A stretch of DNA of 30,099 bases from a virus, in the IMG/VR virus record IMGVR_UViG_3300006929_000068, positions 1-30,099 of that record; one strand, written 5' to 3'. Each line of letters starts with the position of its first letter. Within the stretch, counting starts at the first letter, position 1. Positions 7,944 through 29,103 of this stretch are shown here, piece after piece. The notes under the pieces were generated by a model. That model was not told where the DNA came from and searched no databases. It saw nothing but the letters and a program-made list of their open reading frames with translations. The translations under genes were made by a program, and so were the position numbers.

Positions 7944-9598
7944 TGGCACAGAGTATTGAAGATTTTGCTGCTCCTCTTTTAGCTAAAGCAAAAAAAGCTA
8001 ATAAGAAAATGGAAAAGAGAGTTAGAAATCAAAATTATGCTTTATTAGGTGTAAAACTAGCAAATCAGGCTTTACGATCAAGAGCAATGAATAGAGCGCA
8101 AAGTTGGTACGCTGGAGCACAGCCTATTTTACGACAAGCAAGAGATAACGCACAGGCTGGTTTTAACTTTTGGTCTAATCATAATGAAATGTTGGGAAAA
8201 CATGATTCTACAGATTGGAAAGTGGCAAAAGCACAACAACTATTTAATACTGCATATGCAGAACAAGGAAAACATTTAACTGAGGAAGAAAAGAAAAAAG
8301 CTTTTGCTGCGTATATGCCTACTATTGAAGATCAATTAAATGCTTATGATAAACAAATGAAGCTTCATGGTGAGTTTAAAGGTGCTACAACTGAAAAAGA
8401 AAAAGAAATATTAAGAAAGAGATATTACGGTAACATTGATACTATGTTGACTAACGAAACTGCTCGAATTAAAAATGATAATAGTATATTCAGTGCTGTA
8501 ACGGGCGCATTAGGTATTACTGGAAGAGATAGGCTAGATGATATTGATGCAATAGCTGGAATTCCACAAACAGGATTAAGTCCAAAGGAACAAGAGATTT
8601 CAGATTTCTTTGCGAGTGCAGAGCTTAGAGAAAAAGAAGATTTAGGATTAACAGAAGCTTCTAAAAGATCTGATGGTACGTTTAATTGGAATACTTTTGC
8701 AACTACAAATTTGGCTACACATGAAGATGTGTATGGTAAATTCCAAGATACAAGAGATAAATATATAGAAAATATTAGTGAGGGAACAGCAGGTATAGAA
8801 GCAATTGAAACGGATCTTCAACCTTACGGCGGTATAGTTGTAACATTAGACGATCAACATGAAAATAAAGTTGATATAGCATTTCATCAAATTGTAGACA
8901 TGTTACCAGATACCGGACCTAAGGGTGCTGATACTGCTCAAACGCAATTTATAGATGATGTAACTACCTTGTCTTCTATTTTACAATATAAATACCAAAG
9001 GGCAGCAGAAGCTCTAGCAAAAGCATCAGGTAAATCAGCTCCTATATTTATACCACCCCCACAACACTTTATGAAAGCAGCTACAGAAATGATTGTAAAT
9101 GACGGAAAATTTACATTTGAACGAAATAAAGTGATGCCAAATAAACTGACATATGAAAGCTACGATATAGCTAATCTTACACGAATAGCTAATGAAGAAT
9201 GGAGTTCTTTGCTTAGTGAAAAGACATCAAGAGAAATATTTAAAGACATAGACATTGATGAAGGTAATCAAGAAGAATTAGACAGAGTAATAAGAGAGCA
9301 AGCTCAAGCAGCAGCAGATGCTTCTTTGTCTGTCAATAACAAAATAATGGCAAATATACCTGTTAATCATCTTATACAAGCACTGGAAGAAGCTAAAAAA
9401 GAATCTGATTACGATAAGACAGGAACAGAAAATATAAGAGATCAGTGGATTAAAGCAAGAAAAGCGGCAGGTACTTGGACTCAAGAGGATGAAGATAAAA
9501 TAATGGCAATACAGCTTTCAGCTACTACAGTACCTACACTTCCATCTACGAGTGGTACTTTTGTACCACCTAGATCGGGACCGGGAAGACCTAGATAA
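7943..9598 (+). CDS. helical putative internal virion protein
   Basis: The ATG overlaps the previous TAA by one base, with GGAG about ten bases upstream. The product has 551 residues. Residues 10-35 are very basic (KAKKANKKMEKRVRNQ), and the rest is mostly helical and charged, with no membrane segment and no catalytic motif that I can identify. It ends in a Pro/Thr/Ser tail (PTLPSTSGTFVPPRSGPG). It is coupled by a one-base overlap to the giant gene. Size and order recall T7 gp15, which sits before gp16; this is an analogy of context, not homology I can show. Confidence 0.65.
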   Translation: MAQSIEDFAAPLLAKAKKANKKMEKRVRNQNYALLGVKLANQALRSRAMNRAQSWYAGAQPILRQARDNAQAGFNFWSNHNEMLGKHDSTDWKVAKAQQLFNTAYAEQGKHLTEEEKKKAFAAYMPTIEDQLNAYDKQMKLHGEFKGATTEKEKEILRKRYYGNIDTMLTNETARIKNDNSIFSAVTGALGITGRDRLDDIDAIAGIPQTGLSPKEQEISDFFASAELREKEDLGLTEASKRSDGTFNWNTFATTNLATHEDVYGKFQDTRDKYIENISEGTAGIEAIETDLQPYGGIVVTLDDQHENKVDIAFHQIVDMLPDTGPKGADTAQTQFIDDVTTLSSILQYKYQRAAEALAKASGKSAPIFIPPPQHFMKAATEMIVNDGKFTFERNKVMPNKLTYESYDIANLTRIANEEWSSLLSEKTSREIFKDIDIDEGNQEELDRVIREQAQAAADASLSVNNKIMANIPVNHLIQALEEAKKESDYDKTGTENIRDQWIKARKAAGTWTQEDEDKIMAIQLSATTVPTLPSTSGTFVPPRSGPGRPR

Positions 9599-12500
9599 TG
9601 ATAACTTATTCAGAATTACTTGATCTTTCTAATAAAATAGAGGAAGAAGAGGAAGAAGAACCTATTCAGACTTCTATCTTACCGCCTCCACAATCAAAAC
9701 AATCTGTTGAAGAAGAAGCCCAAGAAGAATCTGATTTAGGTGATCTTAATCAGTTCATGGCAAACTTTTATGCTAGGAAGAAACTTCAAAGGCAAGCAGA
9801 CGGAACCTTTATTCCTAAAACTAAAACAAAGTCTATATCTGTTGAAAATATTCAAGAGGAATTTAGTTTAGATGATCTTGAAGATCCTTCTCATTTTTTA
9901 CACGATGAGTGGACTCAAAGATCAAATAGATTTTTAGAAGGTCTTAGTAAGTTACAGCAAGATTCTGAAGTTACAGGAAGTAAAGATCTTTACGAATACT
10001 TCAGAGATGAAAAATGGAGTACTACCCGGACAATTCAAAGAGCTTTTCAAAATGGAAGCTGGACTCCTGAAATGATGGAGGACTACAGATTCTTACGTCA
10101 GGTTTTTGATAAAGCTAATTTAGGCGGTGCTGGTCAAATTGTAGAAGCTACAAAAGATATTGGTATCGATTTAATAGCTGATCCTATGAATCTTGTAACA
10201 GCTATAGCATCCATGTTTACTATGGGTGCAGGAGGTGTGGCTGTACAAGCTGGAGCCAGAGGTCTTGCAGCAATGGCGGGTAGACATGCTTTATCAAGAC
10301 ATATAAACACTAAGGCAGCACAAATAGCAGTGAGTCCTACATGGCAAGGTACTCTTCAAGGAATGAGCATAGGCTTAACTGAAGGTGCTTTAGATGGAAG
10401 TTTAATTAATGCTGCCACTCAAATAAGTGAAAAGCAAACTGGATTGAGACAGGGAGATTTTGATTGGGGTGAATTAGGAAAGGCTACAGGAGCTGGTGCG
10501 CTTTTTGGGGTAACATTAGGAGGAACCGTAGCTAGTGTAGCTAATGCTATAGCTAGACGATCTTATGCAAGAGCTATGGGCAATTCAGATATTAGTCTTC
10601 CACAACAAGTATTAGATGAAAAAACACAGAAACTTAGAAATACTACGCCAGAAGATATACGAAGATTTAGAAGAGCATCTCATCGTTATCATAAAATGAT
10701 TTCAGCTTTGCCTACATTTGGTAAAGCAACTACACGTTATTTAGAAGTTGCACAGTCTGCTTCTCCAAAGCTTAAAGAGTTTATTAAACTAATACGATAT
10801 GATGCTTTTAAAGGAGTTTTAGGTAAAGACCAAATAGATACGGTTGTTCCTAATTTTAATATACGAAGAGAAATGAGAGAGGGTAAACTTAGGGTTACTG
10901 CTGATAAATTCTTATCAAAAATAATACACAAAGGACAAGGAGCATTAGGTAAGCATAGTTTTTATAATATAAAAATGGACCCTGTTGCCAATAAACAATT
11001 ATTCAGTTTACTTACTGGTGATCATAAATTTAATTTAAAGACTTTATATAAACGTTATTACAATATTAATCCTCAGACAGCCAAAACAACAATGGATGGT
11101 GAGTTAAAAAATAATTGGAAAAATATACGCAAAGTTAAATTACATGGTGAGGAAGTTTCTCCTGAGGTTATTGGTGCAGCTTTTCATGTACGAAGAACTT
11201 TAGACAAAGCACACACAGATGCTTCTTTTATCGATGTTATTGGTACAGATGGTAAAGTCTCAGGAACAACAAGTTTATTTAATTACTCTAAAAAATTCAT
11301 AAAAAATTATTTGCCTCATGTATGGATATACGATGCATTAGAACCAAACAAAGAAGCCTTAGTAGATTTATTACTTAATACAAAACATACTAATTTATTA
11401 GAAGGACAATTTCCTACAGTTAAAGGTAGAATCGCTACTAAAGAAATAGATCTTAAAGTGATCGATGGGGAATTAAAGAAAAAGAATGCTGCTGGAGATT
11501 ATATAGAACTTACAGCCCAAGAAACAGATCAAATTAAAATTGTTTCTTCTTTCGATGAAGAAAGTAAACAGTGGACAAAAATTCAAAATGAAGAATTAGA
11601 ATTTATTTTAACTCAGCAAGGGGATTACGACCAAGTTACTTTTAAAAATTTATTTAAGGATGAAGGGGTATCAAGCTTTAGAGAACTAGCTAGAAAGAAA
11701 AATCCTGATACTGATGAAAATACTATAGAAACTATAGCCAGAAGATTAAAAGGTGAAGCATTAGTTCAAAATATGATCGATGGTAAGTATGATCTTCATA
11801 AAGGACTAAAAGATGTAACTTCTGATCGTACTGCATTTACTCAACACAGAGCTTTTAATGAACTTAATTCTACTGACCTATTTAATTTAGGTGTTATAGA
11901 GACAGATGTTCCTACTATATTCAGTGACTATATGCATAAGATATCTGCTTCTATAGAAAGAACTTCTTTATTTGGAAATACTAAAGGGGAGTTTTCTGAA
12001 CGATGGCAGATCCCTATTCAAAAAGAATTAATGGACGCAAGAGCTGATAATCCAGAATTAACTCTAGATATAATCCAAGAGATTACAGGGAAGGGTGCTG
12101 GCATGGATGCCGATTCTGGAATCATGCAGCTCTATGGCCGGGTTACTGGAATAGAGGGCGCTTATATTAAAAATCCATTTGCTAGAGGAGCATTAGATAC
12201 TACAAAAGTAGCTATGCGACTTGCGTATCTTCCATTAGCTGTAGTGTCAAGTTTTAGTGAGCCTTTAATTGCTTTATCTAGAGCAGACTTACCAGATACT
12301 AAAGATTTTATAAAAGAGTTTAGTAAAGCAGCAGGAAGACAGTTTAGTAAAAGTATGAAAAGAGCCATACGAGCTGGAAAAGTAGCTGGAGGAAAAGAGG
12401 TTCGTGGTGCTCCAGACATGAGCAATGAAGATTGGATGGACTTTTATCAGGCTGGTATCGCTGCTGAACAAGCAATGGAGGATAGACTTCAAGGGCTTTA

Positions 12501-15500
12501 TGGAGAATACCATACAAAAGCTGGGCAATATATATCTCAACAATTTTTCAAATATAATCTTTTGATACCGTGGACACAAGCAGTTCAGATGGGTGCTTAT
12601 AATTTCTCAAATGCTAGGGTTACTAGAATACTTGGTGATCTTAATAGAGGAACGAATTTTATGCATCAGCCTTTAACTAAAAAGGCTATTCAAAGAAGGT
12701 ATGAAGAACTAGAAGAAATTGGAATAAATCCAAAAGAAGCTCTTGAAGAATACAATCAGTATGTCATTCCTGAAATAAATACAGAAACCATTACTCCTAA
12801 AGGAAGAGCATGGGCTAGGTTCGATAGAAAAGAAAGAAAAATTTATGTGAATGAATCTGAATTACAAAAACGATATAAAAATAAAGCTTGGACTAAACCA
12901 AGAGTAAAAGGTGTAGAGGCTTTACCTGAAGATCAGTTTAAATCTTTAGATGAATTTAGACGATTTATTTATTCGCATGAAAGACATCATGCAATGTTAC
13001 CAAAAAGAAAAAAGGAAACAAAAGCTGAATATGAAAATAGAATAAATCAAGCAGCTTTAAATAATATGGATCTTGGAAGATCTATACAAGGTAATTTTAG
13101 ACAATCAGATTGGAAACAAAGTGATTATTATGATCACTCCATTACTCCTGCTTCATCTTTATTTGCCAGAGAAATTATTTTGAATCCTTCTGTAGCAGAA
13201 GCTAATACTCCTTTATGGTATTCCCATCCTGCCGCACAACTATTTGTTCAGTTTATGGGTTATCCAACAGCCTTTAATAATATTGTGTTAAAAGGAATGG
13301 CTAGGAATGTTGTTAAGAACCCTATGATTAATGGATCAAAAGTTTTAGCTGCAACAACTTTAATGACCGGAACAGCTATGCTGGGTAATATGATTCGTTC
13401 TCATGGAGAAAGTCTAGACTTAGATCCTATAGATCAAGTAGCAGAAGGAATCAGACGTTGGGGTGGCTTTGGTCCTTTTGAAATAGCGCACAAATATATA
13501 CAAGGAAAAAAATATGGTAGGTCATGGCTTGGTCCAGCTATAAAAGCTCCACTAGGACCATTACCTTCAGTTGTTGTTGATTCCATAGCATATGGGCAAA
13601 CTCCCTCACAAACTTTAGGAAAAATGGCTCCCGGTTATGGTCTTCTTTCTCCTGAGGCAAAAAGAGAATGGAGTAAATATTTAGGAGCTAAAGGACATAG
13701 AGATTCTTTTTCAGTAAGAGCAGGACTTAGAAGACCTCATAAGAAAAAAGTAAGGGATGGTCTAGCTACCGGAGGAGTTGTCAGTATAGATAATGCAACT
13801 CCAGAGCCTGATGAGCGTGTTGATCGTATGACAGGTCTACCTTATAACATACAAGCTGGTGCAGCTTTTATCGATGCAGAAGAACGTAGAGGCTTTGCTG
13901 AAGGCAGTCTTTTAGAAGATGACGATCCTCAATCCTTCTTACCGACTCCTCCAGTAGAGGGCGAATCAGATATGCCTGAATGGAGACAACCTACGACACC
14001 AATTAAAGCTATTGATGTAATGATGGAGGATGTAGATGAACCCATAACTCCTAAACAAAAGGCCCGACAAAAAGTTAAAGAAAACGATATGTATCGGGTC
14101 TTAACTAGAGACGAAGAAGAGTACGCTACATTTGATAGAACAGAGTTGGTGCTGTACTCAGAAGAGGATTTGAGTCCATTGAATTTGAAAATGGATCAGA
14201 CCTTCTATACTTCACTTCCTGAAGATTCTAGAAAGGCTAAGTTAGAAGCCTTTCGAGATTCCTCAACATTAGGTTTGAATGTCTCAGAAAATCCTGTGAG
14301 TGGAAATGTTCGATTGGCTGGTAAGATTCAGTTTAAGAATGTATTGAGGCTCAATGTAGACGAGGTTACTCCTGATACCATAGCGGATCAGTTATCTATA
14401 ATAAGAACACAGAATGTATTAGCAGAGCCTTTCTTAGCAAAGGCTGTTATAAGGACTGTGAAGAGTGATTTAAAAACCAGAGACATGGTTTTAGAAATGG
14501 ACGATCAGCTTACTCAAGATAAAAGAGATCTCATAGAACAAAGTAAAAGTTTTATTCTACGGCAAGGATTATTAAAACTAGGCTTCGATGCTATTAAATA
14601 CAACAATGGCTATGTGCTTTTAAGAGAGCACCAGTTCCTACCCACGGAGATTGAAGAAGAGCGTGATGCCCGTAGTCATGGCGGTCTACTAAGTACACTA
14701 AATAAAAGAAGGGCTAGATATAATGAGGGTGGCTCAACGGATGATGAGTTGGTTTTTGGCACTGATTTCACTAAAAAAGAATTAAATAGACGCAATACTT
14801 TATTTGGCATGGCCCGTAAGGAAGCGCTTAGAAGATGGAAAGCTGGTGTAGAGGCTGGCGATATTAATCCGAGAAAACATAGCCAGAGTGGATTTATGCG
14901 TACTCAACGGATGGTATTACAGCGTGAATTATTTACAGATTATGATGACTATCCTGAAGGTGAATATGTTTTCAGAAGAGATAGAAAAGCGGAAGGTGGC
15001 AAAATAAAAGAAGCTCTTAAATACGCAGGTACAAGATCATTAGAAACACTGGCAGACATATTTTATGACATGGGAGATGAAGAACTAAGAGCGCATGAAA
15101 AAGAAGCTGCCCGTCTACTTGATAAAGGTATTGATCGTGGAATAGTCAATGAAAGAGAACGAGTTACTATAGAAAACGACAGAGTTTTAAATGCAGGTGA
15201 TGCCTTTAATGCTATTAATCATATGCTGCTTTCGGCCAAACATCATCGTCTTGATAAAAAGATAGCATTACAAGCTAAAGAGATGGGACAATGGATCTTG
15301 GATGATCCGCAATCCTCTGAAATAGATTGGAGAAATAATAAACTTGGCTTTGAGATTGGCGAACAAAGCGGAGGAGATATTAATAAAATTAATGAGGGTA
15401 TTCTTCAGGCTATGAAAGAAGGAAGACAAACTAATAGAATAGACCATGAAAGTAAGATGGATAGATTCCGTTCTTTATTTTCAAATGGGGGAGATCTTGA

Positions 15501-16089
15501 CTTAGATATAGAGGAAGCTCTTGCAAAAGAAGAAGCTAGATTGGACGGAGAACGAAATGACAATCCAAACCTCAGTAAGAATAGAGGATTAAGAAATAGA
15601 AACTTTGGTAATATAATTGGAGGGTCGTGGAGAGATAACCGCATAAAGCATAATGAAAGAGCCATAAGATTTCACGGTGTATCAGGAGTAGACGAGGCTG
15701 GAGCAGGACCAGAAAACCCGGAAGTCTATCTTCAATTTGATAAGTGGTTGTGGGGTCTGAGAGCTATGGCCCATACACTTAGAAAAGAAAACTACAGGAA
15801 TAAATCTTTAGAAAAAATAACGAACACTTATTCTAGGACAGATCAAGATACTTACGCGACAGATGTTTCTGAATTCACTGATGGTGAATTAGCAGTTAAA
15901 GATACTATTGATACTCACGATGATAATAAATTAAGAATGTTAATGAAAGCTATGATAACGAAAGAAGTAGGACATGATATGTCTCCTAATAATTTAATGA
16001 TAAATGAAGCAATACGATTATCCAAAGAAGATAAAGAAGACTCAGAGTTTTCTCAAAGACGGAATATAAATAATGCCTCCAGCAACTAA
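9598..16089 (+). CDS. giant internal virion/ejection protein with HExxH motif
   Basis: The product has 2,163 residues. Residues 1-60 are acidic with a Glu run. Hydrophobic or amphipathic segments lie near 189-230 (GIDLIADPMNLVTAIASMF), 300-320, 873-890 (MRLAYLPLAVVSSFSEPLI) and 1249-1265. Residues 1127-1131 read HERHH, an HExxH zinc-peptidase signature, with Glu1140, Glu1144 and Glu1146 shortly after as possible third ligands. The part after about 1390 differs: acidic, Pro-rich linkers, five double-glycine motifs after basic clusters, and a 1450-1670 stretch ending in LGFDAIKYNNGYVLL. No lytic transglycosylase motif is seen. Length and position suggest a DNA-ejection protein with the role of T7 gp16 (1,318 residues) but far larger. 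Confidence 0.7.
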   Translation: MITYSELLDLSNKIEEEEEEEPIQTSILPPPQSKQSVEEEAQEESDLGDLNQFMANFYARKKLQRQADGTFIPKTKTKSISVENIQEEFSLDDLEDPSHFLHDEWTQRSNRFLEGLSKLQQDSEVTGSKDLYEYFRDEKWSTTRTIQRAFQNGSWTPEMMEDYRFLRQVFDKANLGGAGQIVEATKDIGIDLIADPMNLVTAIASMFTMGAGGVAVQAGARGLAAMAGRHALSRHINTKAAQIAVSPTWQGTLQGMSIGLTEGALDGSLINAATQISEKQTGLRQGDFDWGELGKATGAGALFGVTLGGTVASVANAIARRSYARAMGNSDISLPQQVLDEKTQKLRNTTPEDIRRFRRASHRYHKMISALPTFGKATTRYLEVAQSASPKLKEFIKLIRYDAFKGVLGKDQIDTVVPNFNIRREMREGKLRVTADKFLSKIIHKGQGALGKHSFYNIKMDPVANKQLFSLLTGDHKFNLKTLYKRYYNINPQTAKTTMDGELKNNWKNIRKVKLHGEEVSPEVIGAAFHVRRTLDKAHTDASFIDVIGTDGKVSGTTSLFNYSKKFIKNYLPHVWIYDALEPNKEALVDLLLNTKHTNLLEGQFPTVKGRIATKEIDLKVIDGELKKKNAAGDYIELTAQETDQIKIVSSFDEESKQWTKIQNEELEFILTQQGDYDQVTFKNLFKDEGVSSFRELARKKNPDTDENTIETIARRLKGEALVQNMIDGKYDLHKGLKDVTSDRTAFTQHRAFNELNSTDLFNLGVIETDVPTIFSDYMHKISASIERTSLFGNTKGEFSERWQIPIQKELMDARADNPELTLDIIQEITGKGAGMDADSGIMQLYGRVTGIEGAYIKNPFARGALDTTKVAMRLAYLPLAVVSSFSEPLIALSRADLPDTKDFIKEFSKAAGRQFSKSMKRAIRAGKVAGGKEVRGAPDMSNEDWMDFYQAGIAAEQAMEDRLQGLYGEYHTKAGQYISQQFFKYNLLIPWTQAVQMGAYNFSNARVTRILGDLNRGTNFMHQPLTKKAIQRRYEELEEIGINPKEALEEYNQYVIPEINTETITPKGRAWARFDRKERKIYVNESELQKRYKNKAWTKPRVKGVEALPEDQFKSLDEFRRFIYSHERHHAMLPKRKKETKAEYENRINQAALNNMDLGRSIQGNFRQSDWKQSDYYDHSITPASSLFAREIILNPSVAEANTPLWYSHPAAQLFVQFMGYPTAFNNIVLKGMARNVVKNPMINGSKVLAATTLMTGTAMLGNMIRSHGESLDLDPIDQVAEGIRRWGGFGPFEIAHKYIQGKKYGRSWLGPAIKAPLGPLPSVVVDSIAYGQTPSQTLGKMAPGYGLLSPEAKREWSKYLGAKGHRDSFSVRAGLRRPHKKKVRDGLATGGVVSIDNATPEPDERVDRMTGLPYNIQAGAAFIDAEERRGFAEGSLLEDDDPQSFLPTPPVEGESDMPEWRQPTTPIKAIDVMMEDVDEPITPKQKARQKVKENDMYRVLTRDEEEYATFDRTELVLYSEEDLSPLNLKMDQTFYTSLPEDSRKAKLEAFRDSSTLGLNVSENPVSGNVRLAGKIQFKNVLRLNVDEVTPDTIADQLSIIRTQNVLAEPFLAKAVIRTVKSDLKTRDMVLEMDDQLTQDKRDLIEQSKSFILRQGLLKLGFDAIKYNNGYVLLREHQFLPTEIEEERDARSHGGLLSTLNKRRARYNEGGSTDDELVFGTDFTKKELNRRNTLFGMARKEALRRWKAGVEAGDINPRKHSQSGFMRTQRMVLQRELFTDYDDYPEGEYVFRRDRKAEGGKIKEALKYAGTRSLETLADIFYDMGDEELRAHEKEAARLLDKGIDRGIVNERERVTIENDRVLNAGDAFNAINHMLLSAKHHRLDKKIALQAKEMGQWILDDPQSSEIDWRNNKLGFEIGEQSGGDINKINEGILQAMKEGRQTNRIDHESKMDRFRSLFSNGGDLDLDIEEALAKEEARLDGERNDNPNLSKNRGLRNRNFGNIIGGSWRDNRIKHNERAIRFHGVSGVDEAGAGPENPEVYLQFDKWLWGLRAMAHTLRKENYRNKSLEKITNTYSRTDQDTYATDVSEFTDGELAVKDTIDTHDDNKLRMLMKAMITKEVGHDMSPNNLMINEAIRLSKEDKEDSEFSQRRNINNASSN

Positions 16090-23661: not shown

Positions 23662-24166
23662 ATAATTCCTTTAAAACTTGCAAATTATTTAATTCATTAA
23701 TAGGAAGATTGTAACAGTCTGTTCTAACCTTCCAATTATTAGAAGGATCTACCTCTCCTTTTTTCAAGAAGGTTGCTCTCTTAAGATAATCTTTCTTATC
23801 CATATAACCTAAGAGCCATCCTTCTGAGTAATCATACTTACTCCACTTCTTAGGAAGTATCCTTGTAAATACATATACATCACAGTCTTGTTTAGTATTG
23901 AGAGCAGCCACTGAACATTCATAGTGATCTCTAGGTGGAGTAGTTACCTTCTTACTCTTCACATCTATTTTAAATTTATTAAATATAATATCGTAGTCAT
24001 AGGTATTAGATAGTTCTGTTCCTAGATAGTTCGCTGTAATAATTTCTCCAAGGAATCCTGTGATATTTCCTTTACCTTTCATAATAGAATTATTGAGCTT
24101 ACCCATTTCAGTAGATAACTTCTTAGCACGATCCACATCTTCCTTTGTAATTCTAATGTGTTTCAC
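23654..24166 (-). CDS. PD-(D/E)XK fold protein, putative nuclease
   Basis: I chose GTG 24166 (170 residues), because GGGAG lies eight bases upstream; a GTG three codons earlier would have none. Residues 38-70 read FLGEIITANYLG, DYDIIFNKFKIDVKSKK, which gives Glu41, Asp59 and Asp68-x-Lys70, the core of a restriction-endonuclease fold. The C-terminal part (YVFTRILPKKW, EGWLLGYM) looks like the continuing beta sheet. It overlaps the polymerase gene by 14 bases. Nuclease activity is inferred from these residues only. Confidence 0.65.
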   Translation of the reverse strand: MKHIRITKEDVDRAKKLSTEMGKLNNSIMKGKGNITGFLGEIITANYLGTELSNTYDYDIIFNKFKIDVKSKKVTTPPRDHYECSVAALNTKQDCDVYVFTRILPKKWSKYDYSEGWLLGYMDKKDYLKRATFLKKGEVDPSNNWKVRTDCYNLPINELNNLQVLKELYE

Positions 24167-25901
24167 TCCAATCACTCCCTACTTTATATTCACCAGTTAA
24201 AGGACAACGTAGATTAAAATGCTCTGCTGCTTCTTCTATAGCTTCTACACCTAGCTGACCTACTATATCTGCTTGGTCTTCTTGTACTTGTACCTGCCAC
24301 TCATCGTGTATATTAGCAACAAAGGTAGCATTCAACTTATTAGCTTTAATCTTTTCATCTAAAAGTATCAGAGCTTTCTTCATTGCTATAGCGCCACCAC
24401 CTTGCAAGAGACTATTAAGAGCAGCGTGTTCACTTCTAATAGCAATACAACGTCCGTCTATTCCTTTGAGGAACCCTCTTTTAGCTGCCTTCTGTACTCG
24501 TTTCGTAAGTGAGCCAAGTGAGGGTAGATTGCCGAGGAAACGTTCTTTAAGCTGTTTACCATTAGATCTACTTCCTCCAACCACTTTCCCAAGTTTTTCA
24601 TCTCCTGCTCCGTATATGAAGGCATAGATGAAAGTTTTAGCCTTATCTCTTGATTGAATTCCTGCAAGTCTTTGGTTAACCGCATGTATATCTCCATTAA
24701 GGATTTCATTTATATACTCCTCGTCCTTCATGTAATGGGCAAGCATCCTTAATTCAAGTTGGGATGCGTCTATACCTACTAACTTATATCCATCAGGGAC
24801 AGTCCAACAAGACCTACATTCCTTACCATATTGACTACCCATATTAGGAACTTGGGCAACGTTCGGTCCTCGATGACTCATACGATTTGTAATTGTCCCG
24901 TTGGATATAACCGTACCATGTACCCGGCCATCATCTTGTAACTCATCGAGCCATGATGATAACTGAGCTATCCTCTTCTGTAGTAATAAGAACTCTGAGA
25001 TAAGTTTAGCCTCTGGTATATGTTGTACCTTTTTAAGAGTACCCTCATCTACAATAGGCTGTCCTGTAGGAGTAAATTTTTCTGGCTTCCATCCTAAATC
25101 TTTAAGATGTTCTCCAATTTGTTTACGTGATCCAAGATTAAATACCTGTAGTTTCTTTCTCATAAATGGTTTTATACTTGAAGGCCACGCACAATTGAAT
25201 CCTGCATATTCTTCTTTAGTCAGTCCTCTCTTAGAGAGAGTACCATCTTTTTTAATATAAGGAGTGACCAACTTATCGTCTACCCATTTAGGTTTAAAGG
25301 TTTCTTTTACCTCATCTTCTACTTCAGATATTCTAGTCTTTAACTTAGCAAGGAATGTCATAGCTTGGCGTTCATCAAAAAAGAATCCCGCCTCTTCTTG
25401 AGCATTTATAATCTTAGTTACATCCTGCTCTATCTCAATAGACTCTTTACTAAAGTTAGTACCATCTCTTAATAGCTGGTTGTAGACTAGTTCGTTAAGG
25501 CGAACATCTTGAACACAGTAGTCCATCATATTAGGAGTATAACTATCAAATGTTTCAGGCTGTTCTTTCTTAGGATAGCCTACTCGATACCCCCACGTTT
25601 GTAGGCTATGTCCGTTCTCTTGAACCGGGTTAAACAATCGTGACATTACAAGAGTATCTTCAATATCTGCCTGTAGTTTTATATTAAATAGTTTTTCTAC
25701 TACTGGAATATCGAAGCCTATAATGTTATGTCCGATTAATACATCGGCCCGTTGTAGTAACTTAACTCCTTCTTCAATGTTATCTGGATCAAACTTATAA
25801 ACATCTCCACCTAGTTCTTTAGCTACTATACACCATATCTTAGTCGCATCTAATCCATCAGTTTCAATATCGAATACAACTTTAAAAGGACTCGTCTTCA
25901 T
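24153..25901 (-). CDS. family A DNA polymerase with 3'-5' exonuclease (T7 type)
   Basis: I chose ATG 25901 (582 residues), with GGAG nine bases upstream; a TTG two codons earlier is possible. The proofreading exonuclease has Exo I Asp11/Glu13 (DIETDG), Exo II Asn59/Asp64 (NIIGFD) and Exo III Tyr128/Asp132 (YCVQD). The polymerase has motif A at Asp378 (DASQLELR), motif B Arg418/Lys422/Tyr426 (RDKAKTFIYAFIYG) and motif C His532-Asp533-Glu534. Tyr426 matches T7 Tyr526. It is shorter than T7 gp5 (704), and the Exo III to motif A distance suggests that the thioredoxin-binding loop is missing. It overlaps the primase-helicase gene by 20 bases. Confidence 0.93.
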   Translation of the reverse strand: MKTSPFKVVFDIETDGLDATKIWCIVAKELGGDVYKFDPDNIEEGVKLLQRADVLIGHNIIGFDIPVVEKLFNIKLQADIEDTLVMSRLFNPVQENGHSLQTWGYRVGYPKKEQPETFDSYTPNMMDYCVQDVRLNELVYNQLLRDGTNFSKESIEIEQDVTKIINAQEEAGFFFDERQAMTFLAKLKTRISEVEDEVKETFKPKWVDDKLVTPYIKKDGTLSKRGLTKEEYAGFNCAWPSSIKPFMRKKLQVFNLGSRKQIGEHLKDLGWKPEKFTPTGQPIVDEGTLKKVQHIPEAKLISEFLLLQKRIAQLSSWLDELQDDGRVHGTVISNGTITNRMSHRGPNVAQVPNMGSQYGKECRSCWTVPDGYKLVGIDASQLELRMLAHYMKDEEYINEILNGDIHAVNQRLAGIQSRDKAKTFIYAFIYGAGDEKLGKVVGGSRSNGKQLKERFLGNLPSLGSLTKRVQKAAKRGFLKGIDGRCIAIRSEHAALNSLLQGGGAIAMKKALILLDEKIKANKLNATFVANIHDEWQVQVQEDQADIVGQLGVEAIEEAAEHFNLRCPLTGEYKVGSDWSETH

Positions 25902-27531
25902 TATCAAAAGTCTCCTCGTCTGTCACTTCATACAGCCGACCAGTTTCTGAATCATATTTTAAAGCACAGGCTAATCCAGTGTCTCCTGTATATCTAGACT
26001 TTAGTACACGAACTCTAGTAGTGTTGGCCTCTTCTTCATTGTTTGCCTGTTGGTTGCGCTCTAGTGCAATGACACAATCTGAAAGCTGTGCTATGCCCTG
26101 AGAGCCTTTTAAATGACTGAGAGATACTTGGATACCCTTCTCATGCCCACGCTCTCCAGCAGCCCTGCGTAGGTGTGATACAAGTAACATACCTACACCA
26201 GTTTCTTCTACTAAACTTCGTAATCTATTCATCAAAGAATCGATACCTCGCCTCTCATCTCCCTCACTAAGTACATTAACTAGCATGTGTAAATGGTCAA
26301 CGATGACCCACTTACATTCGCATCCTATAATAATGTATCTTAATTTAGAAAAGAACTCTTCAATATCCGTTACTCCTAAGTGCGAGTGAATAAACACTCT
26401 ACCCTTTTGAATGATTGTATCGAATAGTTTTGATAGTTCCTCATCACTGTAGGCTTCTCTCTTTTCTTTGAGATACAGTCTATCGTTAGCCTCAATAGAT
26501 ATTATACCGTCAGCGGTTCTGTATTTATTTTCTTCAAGGGCAATGATTCCTATATTATCTTTGGTCTGTTTGATTAGCCAGTGTTCTAATTCTCGTACAA
26601 CACTGGACTTTCCAAGTCCCGTTCCACCCGTAAAGGTAACAAGCTCTCCCTGCCGTAAACCAAAAAGTTTTTGATTCAAACCTTCCCACGGGAAAGATAT
26701 ACTTTCTATTTCTTTACGGTGTAACCATTCATCTTTTAAGCTGGATAATTCTACAATACCTGAGGGCGTATAAGTTTTAGCTTCCCACCAAGCATTAGTG
26801 AATTCCTGAAACTTTTTATTACGCAGCATATCATTGGCATCTTTATAGCCATTGGGGAATGACATTATCTTTACTTTCCCCGGCCTAAGTATACCAGCTA
26901 CTTTTTTAGCAGCCTCATTACCTGCCTTATCATTATCAAAACAAAGAACTATATTTTGAAATGACTCAACAAATTCTATGCTCTCCCGTATATCTTTAAC
27001 TGCTCCAGCAGCCCCACGTTTCAGAGATACAACAGCCCATTTTCCTTGGAACATTTCACTAACTGCCATTGCATCACATTCTCCTTCTGTAATGGTCAGG
27101 TATTTAGCTCCCTTTGAATTGAAGAGTTGCTCTCCAAACAAACCAGTTCCTTCAAATGTACCGCCCGTTACAAATCCTTTATTAGCTACGTGTCTGGTTT
27201 TAGTACCGACGATTTCTGTGCCATTAAAATATGGGTAAATATGTTGGGCCATTTTCCCATCAATTAATACACTACGAACTCCGAATTTTGTAGCTGTCTC
27301 TTTGGATATGCCACGATCTGATAAGTCATTAAAAGATCCTGCATAAGAATTAAGGAAGGTATTTTTAGGGGCTTTGAATTCAACTATGGTATCTTGATCT
27401 GTTGCTTCATCGTACTTAGGGAATCGGGTCTGACAACTAAAACACCATGCTGATCCGTCATCGTTCAAACCTACAGGGTCTGATCCACCGCACTTGGGAC
27501 AGGGCAATTTAGTTTTAACAAAATTTCCCAT
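25882..27531 (-). CDS. bifunctional primase-helicase (T7 gp4 type)
   Basis: I chose ATG 27531, with AGGAGA just upstream (549 residues). It makes RNA primers and unwinds DNA at the fork. Domains in order: zinc ribbon with Cys11, Cys14, Cys30, Cys33; TOPRIM with Glu149 (TEGECDA) and Asp199/Asp201 (CFDNDKAG); RecA-type helicase with Walker A at 301-310 (TGGTGLGKSS), Walker B Asp412 (WVIVDH) and LLVSHLRR. The last residues are acidic and end in Phe (DNEDESF), like the T7 gp4 tail that contacts the polymerase. The short hairpin at 27551-27586 lies just before it. Confidence 0.93.
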   Translation of the reverse strand: MGNFVKTKLPCPKCGGSDPVGLNDDGSAWCFSCQTRFPKYDEATDQDTIVEFKAPKNTFLNSYAGSFNDLSDRGISKETATKFGVRSVLIDGKMAQHIYPYFNGTEIVGTKTRHVANKGFVTGGTFEGTGLFGEQLFNSKGAKYLTITEGECDAMAVSEMFQGKWAVVSLKRGAAGAVKDIRESIEFVESFQNIVLCFDNDKAGNEAAKKVAGILRPGKVKIMSFPNGYKDANDMLRNKKFQEFTNAWWEAKTYTPSGIVELSSLKDEWLHRKEIESISFPWEGLNQKLFGLRQGELVTFTGGTGLGKSSVVRELEHWLIKQTKDNIGIIALEENKYRTADGIISIEANDRLYLKEKREAYSDEELSKLFDTIIQKGRVFIHSHLGVTDIEEFFSKLRYIIIGCECKWVIVDHLHMLVNVLSEGDERRGIDSLMNRLRSLVEETGVGMLLVSHLRRAAGERGHEKGIQVSLSHLKGSQGIAQLSDCVIALERNQQANNEEEANTTRVRVLKSRYTGDTGLACALKYDSETGRLYEVTDEETFDNEDESF

Positions 27532-27535
27532 ACTG

Positions 27536-27541
27536 TCTCCT
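27536..27541 (-). promoter_or_regulatory. ribosome binding site deciding the primase-helicase start
   Basis: AGGAGA on the - strand is four bases before the ATG at 27531. An alternative in-frame start nine codons upstream lies inside the hairpin arm and has no such site. Confidence 0.6.
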
Positions 27542-27550
27542 ATTAAAAGA

Positions 27551-27586
27551 CTAGGCATTCTATTAAAGACTTCATAGAATGCCTAG
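27551..27586 (-). terminator. 13-bp perfect hairpin, possible terminator or attenuator
   Basis: CTAGGCATTCTAT at 27551-27563 is exactly complementary to ATAGAATGCCTAG at 27574-27586, with a 10-base loop. On the - strand it follows the stop of the preceding small gene by a few bases and is followed by TCTTTTAAT, a weak U-tract. It is the only clear stem-loop I saw in the replication operon. It could reduce read-through between the single-stranded-DNA-binding protein region and primase-helicase, or be an RNA processing or stability element. Confidence 0.55.
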
Positions 27587-27593
27587 CCAAGTT

Positions 27594-27833
27594 TTACTTA
27601 GACTCTACTACTTCGACTTCCTCCTCTACCCTAGCCTCTTCACATTGAGCCAATGTATTACCTAATGAATCTCGATATACATTGTTTGCAACAGCTAATG
27701 CCTTAATAATAATATCGACTACTGAAACTGTACGAATAATTGCATCGCTTTCCAATTTAATTTTTGGATTTTTTATATCGTCAGTTTCATATGTTGATAC
27801 TTCTTGCTTTTCGTTTTGAATACTAATCTTCAT
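27594..27833 (-). CDS. small acidic protein, unknown function
   Basis: The product has 79 residues and begins two bases after the stop of the single-stranded-DNA-binding protein gene. The middle part (AIIRTVSVVDIIIKALAVAN) is hydrophobic and helical, probably a buried core rather than a membrane segment. The end is very acidic (EEARVEEEVEVVESK). I do not recognise it. The short gap suggests coupled expression with the binding protein. Confidence 0.6.
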   Translation of the reverse strand: MKISIQNEKQEVSTYETDDIKNPKIKLESDAIIRTVSVVDIIIKALAVANNVYRDSLGNTLAQCEEARVEEEVEVVESK

Positions 27834-27835
27834 AG

Positions 27836-28252
27836 TTAGAATTCTTCTCCGTCTTCAAAGAACTCAGAGCCGTCATCGTTTTTATAAGGTACTAAATCTA
27901 AAACTTGAACAGCTTGTAAATCTAGTCCGATATAAGTACCAAACTTTCCTTCTCCTGAGTACTCATTATATTGCACCCTAACTTTAGAGCCGTTACCAAC
28001 AGCTACCTTGAGTTCAACCTTATTAGAATCTAACAATCTAGGTGCTGGTCTAACTCTACCGTTAGGTCCGTTTACTTTACGCTTCACAATAACTGCTGGA
28101 CCTTCGTCCATTTGTTTTACGTTGTGTCCACGAGAAGCAAACTCATTTGCTGTATCGTCATCGACTACAACATTAACTGTATATACAGGCTCAAACATTG
28201 TATTAGGTGTTGTTATACTAGCCCAATATGCGGTCCCTTCTATAATTGCCAT
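27836..28252 (-). CDS. putative single-stranded-DNA-binding protein
   Basis: The product has 138 residues. It is beta-rich (YWASITTP, YTVNVVVDD, VELKVAVGNGSKVRVQY, YIGLDLQAVQVLDL), which suits an OB fold, and ends in an acidic tail with terminal Phe (GSEFFEDGEEF), the hallmark of T7 gp2.5 and bacterial SSB proteins. It is about 90 residues shorter than T7 gp2.5. GGAGATAG lies upstream of the ATG. Its place at the head of the polymerase module supports this role: coating single-stranded DNA and recruiting polymerase and helicase through the tail. The family is assigned by these features, not by a diagnostic motif. Confidence 0.75.
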   Translation of the reverse strand: MAIIEGTAYWASITTPNTMFEPVYTVNVVVDDDTANEFASRGHNVKQMDEGPAVIVKRKVNGPNGRVRPAPRLLDSNKVELKVAVGNGSKVRVQYNEYSGEGKFGTYIGLDLQAVQVLDLVPYKNDDGSEFFEDGEEF

Positions 28253-28264
28253 ACTCTCTATCTC

Positions 28265-29092
28265 CTAAGTAATGTTAAATTTAAATGTCATTTCACAATT
28301 TGCAAAAGCATTATCTGATTCTTCAAATACTAATGCGCCTACATATTTTTGTACAGCATTAACCAATGACTGACTAGCTGTTCCTGATTCTGCATTCTTA
28401 AAATTTGTTACTCCTTCTGTTGTTATATCAAACCACACTTTAATATCCTGCCTACTAGTAGCATTAATGTTTTGAAGTCTTCTTTGTAGATCAGAAAGAA
28501 GTTCTTTTCTATTTAAGGCTTCAGTAGGGGCTGGACATTTCGCTAATGATTTATCTACAGGCTCACTTATAGATTCATTTACGGGTTCTTCTTTAAGTAT
28601 GGGTTCATTTACTAAGTCTTCCTCTCCAAATAATACATTGTGATTGAACTGAATACTAGAAACTTTATTACTTAGTTCTTGTATCATTAATAAAAGAGAA
28701 GACACTTCGTTATTTAATTCTCTAGAACGAGAAGCCATCATAGCGTGGTCTTTTGATGCATCAACACTCAATGTTTCAACCCGGCCTTCGACTTTCTCTA
28801 AGTGTTCAGAAACTAAATTAGTTTGTTCCCCTACTATATTGTTTAAGCTAACTAAATCTTGATTGATTTCATATGACCTTTGTAATGAATAATCAATTCT
28901 TTCTGATAGAGCGTTGTCTATTTCTTGAAAGCTATCAGTTACCTTTTGATATTGAGTAACGGCTTTTCTTTCTACACTATCTATCTGTTCTGAAATCCTT
29001 GGACTCAGAATATAGACTGTTGCTGATGCTACTAGTATCGCTACTAATGTAGATACCGCTAATGTTTGTACTACTGTTAATAAATTTTTCAT
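28265..29092 (-). CDS. one-TM protein with coiled coil and possible TonB-like C-terminal domain
   Basis: The product has 275 residues, with AAGGAGA before the ATG. Residues 8-30 form a transmembrane helix (QTLAVSTLVAILVASATVYI). Residues 34-150 are a helical coiled coil, 155-192 an acidic, Pro/Glu-containing linker (NEPILKEEPVNESISEP), and 193-275 a small domain with the pattern of the TonB/TolA C-terminus: DIKVWFDITTEGVTN, SLVNAVQKYVGALVFEE, EMTFKFNI. Cys186 and Cys266 could form a disulfide in the periplasm. The likely topology is N-terminus inside. It could act on TonB-dependent receptors or block other phages. A membrane anchor for replication (as phi29 p16.7) is the alternative. Confidence 0.5.
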   Translation of the reverse strand: MKNLLTVVQTLAVSTLVAILVASATVYILSPRISEQIDSVERKAVTQYQKVTDSFQEIDNALSERIDYSLQRSYEINQDLVSLNNIVGEQTNLVSEHLEKVEGRVETLSVDASKDHAMMASRSRELNNEVSSLLLMIQELSNKVSSIQFNHNVLFGEEDLVNEPILKEEPVNESISEPVDKSLAKCPAPTEALNRKELLSDLQRRLQNINATSRQDIKVWFDITTEGVTNFKNAESGTASQSLVNAVQKYVGALVFEESDNAFANCEMTFKFNIT

Positions 29093-29096
29093 GCTA

Positions 29097-29103
29097 TCTC
29101 CTT
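29097..29103 (-). promoter_or_regulatory. ribosome binding site of the TonB-like gene
   Basis: AAGGAGA on the - strand lies four bases before the ATG at 29092, one of the strongest sites in the right arm. The 27-base gap upstream also holds the palindrome TAAACGTTTA (29109-29118). Confidence 0.55.

Follow-up and report, generated by a model that had tools for sequence, protein, structure and literature searches.

A protein with a predicted TonB-type C-terminal domain is encoded beside the replication genes of uncultured marine phages

The 30,099-base IMG/VR virus record analysed here (the window, by which we mean this whole stretch of DNA) carries, directly upstream of its gene for a single-stranded DNA-binding protein (SSB), a gene whose product is laid out like bacterial TonB, and the question is what such a protein could do for a phage. 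A first-pass annotation, which gave no strand, had pointed to the gene at 28265-29092. It is confirmed as an open reading frame on the minus strand, and the plus strand across the same positions is full of stops. The gene and its cluster are the following:

28265..29092, minus strand: TonB-like phage protein of 275 aa, its gene running from ATG to TAA in the ORF list, with homologues at the equivalent slot
29098..29103, minus strand: ribosome-binding site AAGGAG 5' of the gene for the TonB-like protein, read directly from the sequence
27836..28252, minus strand: gp2.5-like SSB gene (phrog_112, E 2.5e-10)
25882..27558, minus strand: primase/helicase of the same gene cluster (phrog_239, E 4.4e-173)
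24153..25907, minus strand: family A DNA polymerase, also of this cluster (closest isolate pelagiphage HTVC115P, 50.6% identity)

From the stop of the TonB-like gene to the start of the SSB gene there are 12 nt. After the SSB come a 79-aa gene, the primase/helicase, the family A polymerase and, still on that strand, more genes, among which both ribonucleotide reductase subunits were recognised by reading the translations. The polymerase is closest to those of the pelagiphages HTVC115P, HTVC103P and HTVC104P, at about 50% identity, and the replication module is therefore T7-like; these nearest isolates by polymerase infect Pelagibacter. The 79-aa gene between SSB and primase (window 27594-27833) has no PHROG match and apparent counterparts in L014, L009, L169 and L177. 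Elsewhere, window 9598-16089 encodes a protein of 2163 aa that has PHROG matches named 'endolysin' (phrog_7348, E 1.3e-28) and is probably an internal virion protein.

The gene belongs to a diverse family in uncultured marine phages, under purifying selection and with two main subfamilies. All ORFs were searched in 154 distinct IMG/VR contigs, 80 taken by their primase and 80 by their SSB, and family members were present in 13 of them (L006, L007-L012, L014, L032, L080, L083, L084 and L146), which is a lower bound because many contigs are fragments. A near-identical contig, L001, was found directly, L169 and L170 were found by a profile scan, and a scan with subfamily 2 gave 33 loci, already-known loci included and two of them halves of one contig. 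In a search of 29 whole records the family occurred in four, the window and G065-G067, the latter three having been put into the set because they carry the gene; it was absent from the other 25 records, three GenBank phages among these. A tblastn search of GenBank phages with three family queries gave chance matches only and no relative among 50,697 phage records, and a pattern scan of genome contigs found no cellular relative of L014.

The slot is a variable one, and the TonB-like gene in it is accessory. Within subfamily 1 (window, L007, L014, L146, L169, L170) it directly adjoins the SSB gene, with gaps of 11-23 nt, and in the subfamily-2 loci that were laid out (L177, L198, L201) one or two small ORFs separate the two. 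Whole-gene dN/dS was 0.13-0.29 in 11 of 11 subfamily-2 pairs (14 pairs were tested overall), 0.35 for L007/L014, 0.30 for L146/L169, which differ by very few changes, and 0.64 for the window against L014, where synonymous sites are near saturation. The homologues in the equivalent slot, the low dN/dS and an invariant CP...C cysteine pair make the ORF more than a chance one.

Other genes occupy the region as well. A distant family member at L032:1442-2149 lies about 1.7 kb upstream of the SSB region and does not adjoin the SSB. In pelagiphage HTVC115P two genes annotated as lysozyme occupy the slot upstream of the SSB (L003:6082-7460), and at L016:109-591 the slot has a Hydrolase_2 cell-wall hydrolase (E 1.5e-23) with a signal-like N-terminus. 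Small anchor-plus-coil proteins of 86-90 aa are encoded in this slot upstream of the SSB at L124:169-429, L135:1092-1361 and L137:1167-1436 and in L033 and L145; they resemble the family's anchor and coil in layout, and the two that were scanned had a weak DUF7365 match. Two genes upstream of its SSB, pelagiphage HTVC103P has a gene annotated 'toxin-activating lysine-acyltransferase' (L004:9458-9907).

Along the chain, the window protein can be divided into four parts:

29006..29062, minus strand: predicted membrane anchor at residues 11-29 (no His, no Ser-3x-His; hydropathy over 19 residues peaks at 2.31)
28631..28996, minus strand: long helix after the anchor, residues 33-154 (helix 2-154 in the AlphaFold2 model)
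28538..28630, minus strand: low-confidence Pro/Glu linker, residues 155-185 (pLDDT <50 for 154-184; EP/PE dipeptides)
28268..28537, minus strand: predicted TonB-type C-terminal domain (CTD), residues 186-275, with conserved Cys186 and Cys266 (models, alignment, profiles)

The layout of TonB that had been read from the gene, with an N-terminal membrane anchor, a long helix, a Pro/Glu linker and a CTD of about 90 residues, is thus recovered. The motifs quoted for it are found at residues 218-230 (KVWFDITTEGVTN) and 267-274 (EMTFKFNI), and residues 186 and 266 are the only cysteines of the protein. The 122 helical residues from 33 to 154 would measure about 18 nm if straight, by arithmetic at 1.5 Å per residue; the periplasm is given as 15-40 nm in PMC12905483. 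A hydrophobic segment near the N-terminus, with hydropathy 1.9-2.7, is present in 30 of 30 distinct family proteins with a start, and the net charge of the N-terminal flank is 0 to +2 in all 30, a range that is not decisive for topology in every member. In a 16-row alignment of the domain five columns are invariant, including the C-P where the domain begins and the C ahead of the last strand, so that the cysteine pair is kept throughout. From the hydropathy, charge and cysteine arguments we infer an N-in/C-out topology with the CTD in the periplasm, and the two conserved cysteines of the CTD probably form a disulfide.

The linker has a motif of its own, GVNAGxGVLTG, in 23 of the 29 proteins examined, that is, in all subfamily-2 proteins among them; it is strongly conserved and sits in the Pro/Glu linker (for example L177:6001-6681, residues 122-132). 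Subfamily 2 also has forms that end before the CTD, two distinct proteins in 3 of the 33 loci, at L198:767-1150 (127 aa, also in L199) and L201:804-1172 (122 aa). They keep the anchor, the coil and GVNAGxGVLTG, and part of the function may therefore lie in anchor and coil.

The predicted models give good support to the fold of the TonB CTD in both subfamilies. The AlphaFold2 model of the window protein, made from a 10-sequence alignment, has a mean pLDDT of 67.6, with the blocks of the CTD at about 56-78, which is middling confidence. When it was compared with the PDB by Foldseek, ranks 1-20 were all TonB, FusB, HasB or TolA, with a best E of 6.7e-3 at probability 1.00 and none <0.001. With VIA, for which a Z of about 8 may reflect a common arrangement, the best match was E. 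coli TonB 1u07_B (Z 8.1, 2.6 Å over 80 residues), ranks 1-18 were all of TonB/TolA type, and the first unrelated row, a kinesin stalk at Z 4.8, was matched on the helix. As a second test the CTD of L177 was modelled, from the subfamily that is 20-28% identical to the window domain. This model reached pLDDT 90.7 and pTM 0.79, two of the five models being weaker (72.5 and 65.9); its Foldseek ranks 1-16 were all TonB/HasB/TolA, with TM up to 0.72 and a best E of 3.8e-3, and by VIA it matched E. coli TonB 1u07_A at Z 8.5 (2.2 Å over 78 residues), with ranks 1-19 TonB/TolA and the first unrelated row at Z 4.2. We assign the fold because one family fills both lists, the matches span the entire domain and the two subfamilies have diverged. 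The TonB-like fold suggested from the sequence is in this way borne out by two models, one per subfamily, that retrieve TonB CTDs first and almost exclusively.

In both predicted models the strand-strand-helix-strand arrangement of the TonB CTD is found, with a C-terminal strand open for augmentation. The whole CTD of the window model reads helix-strand-strand-helix-strand, with strands at 213-223 and 228-235, a helix at 241-252 and a strand at 263-274; a helix and then a final strand had been described correctly, and the one strand placed before them is two in the model. TolA matches reached Z 5.5 or less against 8.1-8.5 for TonB in both subfamily models, and together with the hhalign comparisons given below the models clearly favour TonB over TolA. 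ATP-grasp and carboxylase chains also appeared in the VIA searches of both models, below TonB/TolA and at Z under 5. A BFVD search, in which the long helix dominates the query, returned no TonB-like viral structure.

By sequence alone, homology to TonB is suggestive and not established. Pfam scans gave no TonB_C match for the window protein or the family, and no curated profile of the TonB_C type was matched above its cut-off. In NCBIfam the window domain matches only myxo_SS_tail (NF033768, the AgmX/PglI C-terminal domain), with E 0.0038 over profile positions 23-91 of 92, but at 17.3 bits against a cut-off of 40; four of 16 family members match the same profile, best E 0.0033, below the curated cut-off. 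AgmX is a protein that we take to carry a TonB-like CTD. Profile A2, of 7 sequences, had 15 matches in the PDB, 7 to TonB (best E 0.065), 7 to protein G and 1 to OR280, and protein G was rejected as an explanation because it is absent among the matches listed in the Foldseek searches of both models. The broader, mixed 16-row profile A5 had no PDB match. In hhalign, A2 gave a probability of 73.5 to E. coli TonB and 48.7 to 39 TonB sequences, scores that were each reached by none of 300 shuffles; the score to E. coli TolA was reached by 12 of 300 and lies within the shuffles, and with A4 and A5 the probability against TonB was below 20. The profile match that had been looked for is thus weakly present for TonB in hhalign (49-74%), sub-threshold for NF033768 and missing for Pfam TonB_C and for TolA. 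What had been named as speaking against a TonB-like protein was a missing profile match combined with a fold of another type; the predicted fold is TonB's, and it is the sequence half that is weak. Single-sequence Pfam and PHROGs scans gave coiled-coil or chance matches only, and a PADLOC JetA match (E 0.0014), to the coil only, was taken as a coiled-coil artefact.

Compared with TonB itself (E. coli CTD 1u07; FusB 7zc8), the phage protein has the same order of anchor, spacer and CTD and a C-terminal strand similar in character, but its CTDs are 8-22% identical to TonB CTDs in the structure tables, the spacer is mostly helical, a cysteine pair is conserved, the coupling His is missing and the gene lies in a replication module without ExbBD. 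It shares with TolA domain III a related fold, a long helical spacer and cysteines in the CTD, whereas the fold match is weaker than to TonB, an hhalign signal is lacking and there is no SHLS motif. No phage TonB-like protein was found in the open-access literature searched, whose coverage was partial, in agreement with the remark of the first-pass annotation that it knew of no described case; PMC10504331 mentions a pelagiphage TonB-dependent receptor gene, which is a receptor and not TonB.

Whether the protein could be driven by a motor depends on its anchor. PMC12905483 describes a transmembrane motif, Ser-3X-His-6X-Leu-3X-Ser, that is common to TonB and TolA and touches ExbB/TolQ through its Ser and His. 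In the window protein the anchor lacks a His. Among the 30 phage proteins, which are interrelated and thus not 30 independent events, none has Ser-3x-His near the anchor, and two have a His near the predicted transmembrane segment, both at its outer edge; these are the two that contain the loose coupling motif, which was found in 26 of 38 cellular TonB_C proteins. The strict SHLS motif was found in only 2 of these 38 controls, and a transmembrane segment in 32, of which 25 have the His and 7 have none by this crude test, so the missing His is suggestive and not proof. ExbD and MotA_ExbB profiles matched none of 25 viral records, most of them fragments, and neither did the TonB-dependent receptor plug or the OmpA/Pal families; host ExbB/ExbD could serve. 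Since it lacks the coupling His, and since the viral records gave no match to ExbB/ExbD, the protein, as judged from its sequence, is a TonB-like CTD protein that is unlikely to be energised. The proposal that it takes part in energised transport or keeps nutrient uptake going is disfavoured on the same two grounds. A TonB substitute that is driven by the ExbBD (or TolQR) motor of the host and maintains uptake in the infected cell, or redirects it, would have the right fold and domain order, and His-less cellular TonB proteins exist, but we find this improbable.

The reading that we tentatively prefer, and that falls a little short of an even chance in our judgement, is of an inner-membrane-anchored, periplasm-spanning phage protein with a TonB-type CTD and no coupling motif, which captures an outer-membrane partner without force. 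Anchored in the inner membrane, and with a helix long enough to cross the periplasm, it would use its last beta strand to capture, by strand augmentation, the TonB box of a transporter or some other strand donor. TonB and TolA capture partners in this way too, but the phage protein would exert no force. According to PMC12905483, the CTDs of TonB and TolA both add a strand of the partner to their own C-terminal strand. Coupling should be blocked by a clamp that has no motor, and in the infected cell the protein would therefore compete with TonB-type coupling, or clamp it, so that it is stopped or frozen. The phage would most likely gain by keeping out other phages, or bacteriocins, whose receptors must be energised; protection against superinfecting phages had been among the roles suggested in the first-pass annotation. 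It may thus be a passive viral decoy or tether. That a marine T7-like phage family encodes a force-free TonB, a clamp that seizes the pulled strand and switches off TonB- or Tol-type coupling, is possible, but we would sooner doubt it than believe it. Such a purpose has a precedent, since PMC9586334 describes T5 Llp as jamming TonB-dependent transporters from the periplasm; the design differs, because Llp and Cor, which likewise act on TonB-dependent receptors from that side and offer a possible analogy of purpose, are small plug-binding lipoproteins whose architecture is unrelated and not TonB-like. Pelagibacter ubique has no TonB-dependent transporters according to PMC3400609, and a TonB box as the target would therefore fail if the host is SAR11.

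A host without such transporters would suit a block of Tol-Pal, in which the protein takes hold of TolB or a similar strand donor and gives a looser outer membrane and tolerance to TolA-using phages or bacteriocins. The helical spacer and the cysteines of the CTD resemble TolA, and TolA CTDs are the next-best fold matches; yet the fit to TonB is clearly better and the hhalign score to TolA stays within the shuffles, and this explanation seems to us quite unlikely. The likeness to inner-membrane spanins raises another one, an envelope tether or lysis aid that bridges both membranes and helps to disrupt the envelope at lysis, where the TonB-type domain would give the grip on the outer membrane in place of a lipoprotein partner. 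The i-spanins of the Rz type have a single N-terminal anchor and a periplasmic coil, as the phage protein has with its periplasm-length helix. A simple lipobox scan gave no lipoprotein (o-spanin) candidate in the window, forms without the CTD exist, and the lysozyme-annotated genes and the cell-wall hydrolase at the slot of relatives keep a role in lysis or tethering alive. Against it, the gene is part of the replication module, which T7-like phages make before lysis, spanins are not known to carry a TonB CTD, and the Rz family PF03245 was over cut-off in none of 25 records, with one sub-threshold match (G078), though spanins are diverse and one could be present in spite of the missing Rz match and lipobox ORF. 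We consider the lysis or tether role unlikely, but worth keeping in mind. The tight position upstream of the SSB in the six subfamily-1 loci would fit a membrane anchor for phage replication, with a cytoplasmic CTD that contacts SSB or DNA as in phi29 p16.7. This is very improbable, as the predicted fold is that of a periplasmic domain, the cysteine pair is invariant and the N-terminal flank has no net negative charge in any of the 30 proteins; in addition, 141 of the 154 SSB- or primase-matched contigs, many of them fragments, gave no sign of the gene, and replication therefore does not seem to need it.

Even without any claim of function, a fold has been assigned to a marine phage gene family that Pfam and PHROGs scans leave unnamed. 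If the reading as a force-free clamp is true, nature would have supplied in this protein a competitive inhibitor of TonB-type coupling, which bears on how phages exclude their rivals, and it would offer a tool for blocking outer-membrane uptake. It would be a superinfection exclusion that acts on the step of energy transfer and not on a single receptor, and these phages would have adopted the part by which the bacterial energy system takes hold of the outer membrane, stripped of its motor.
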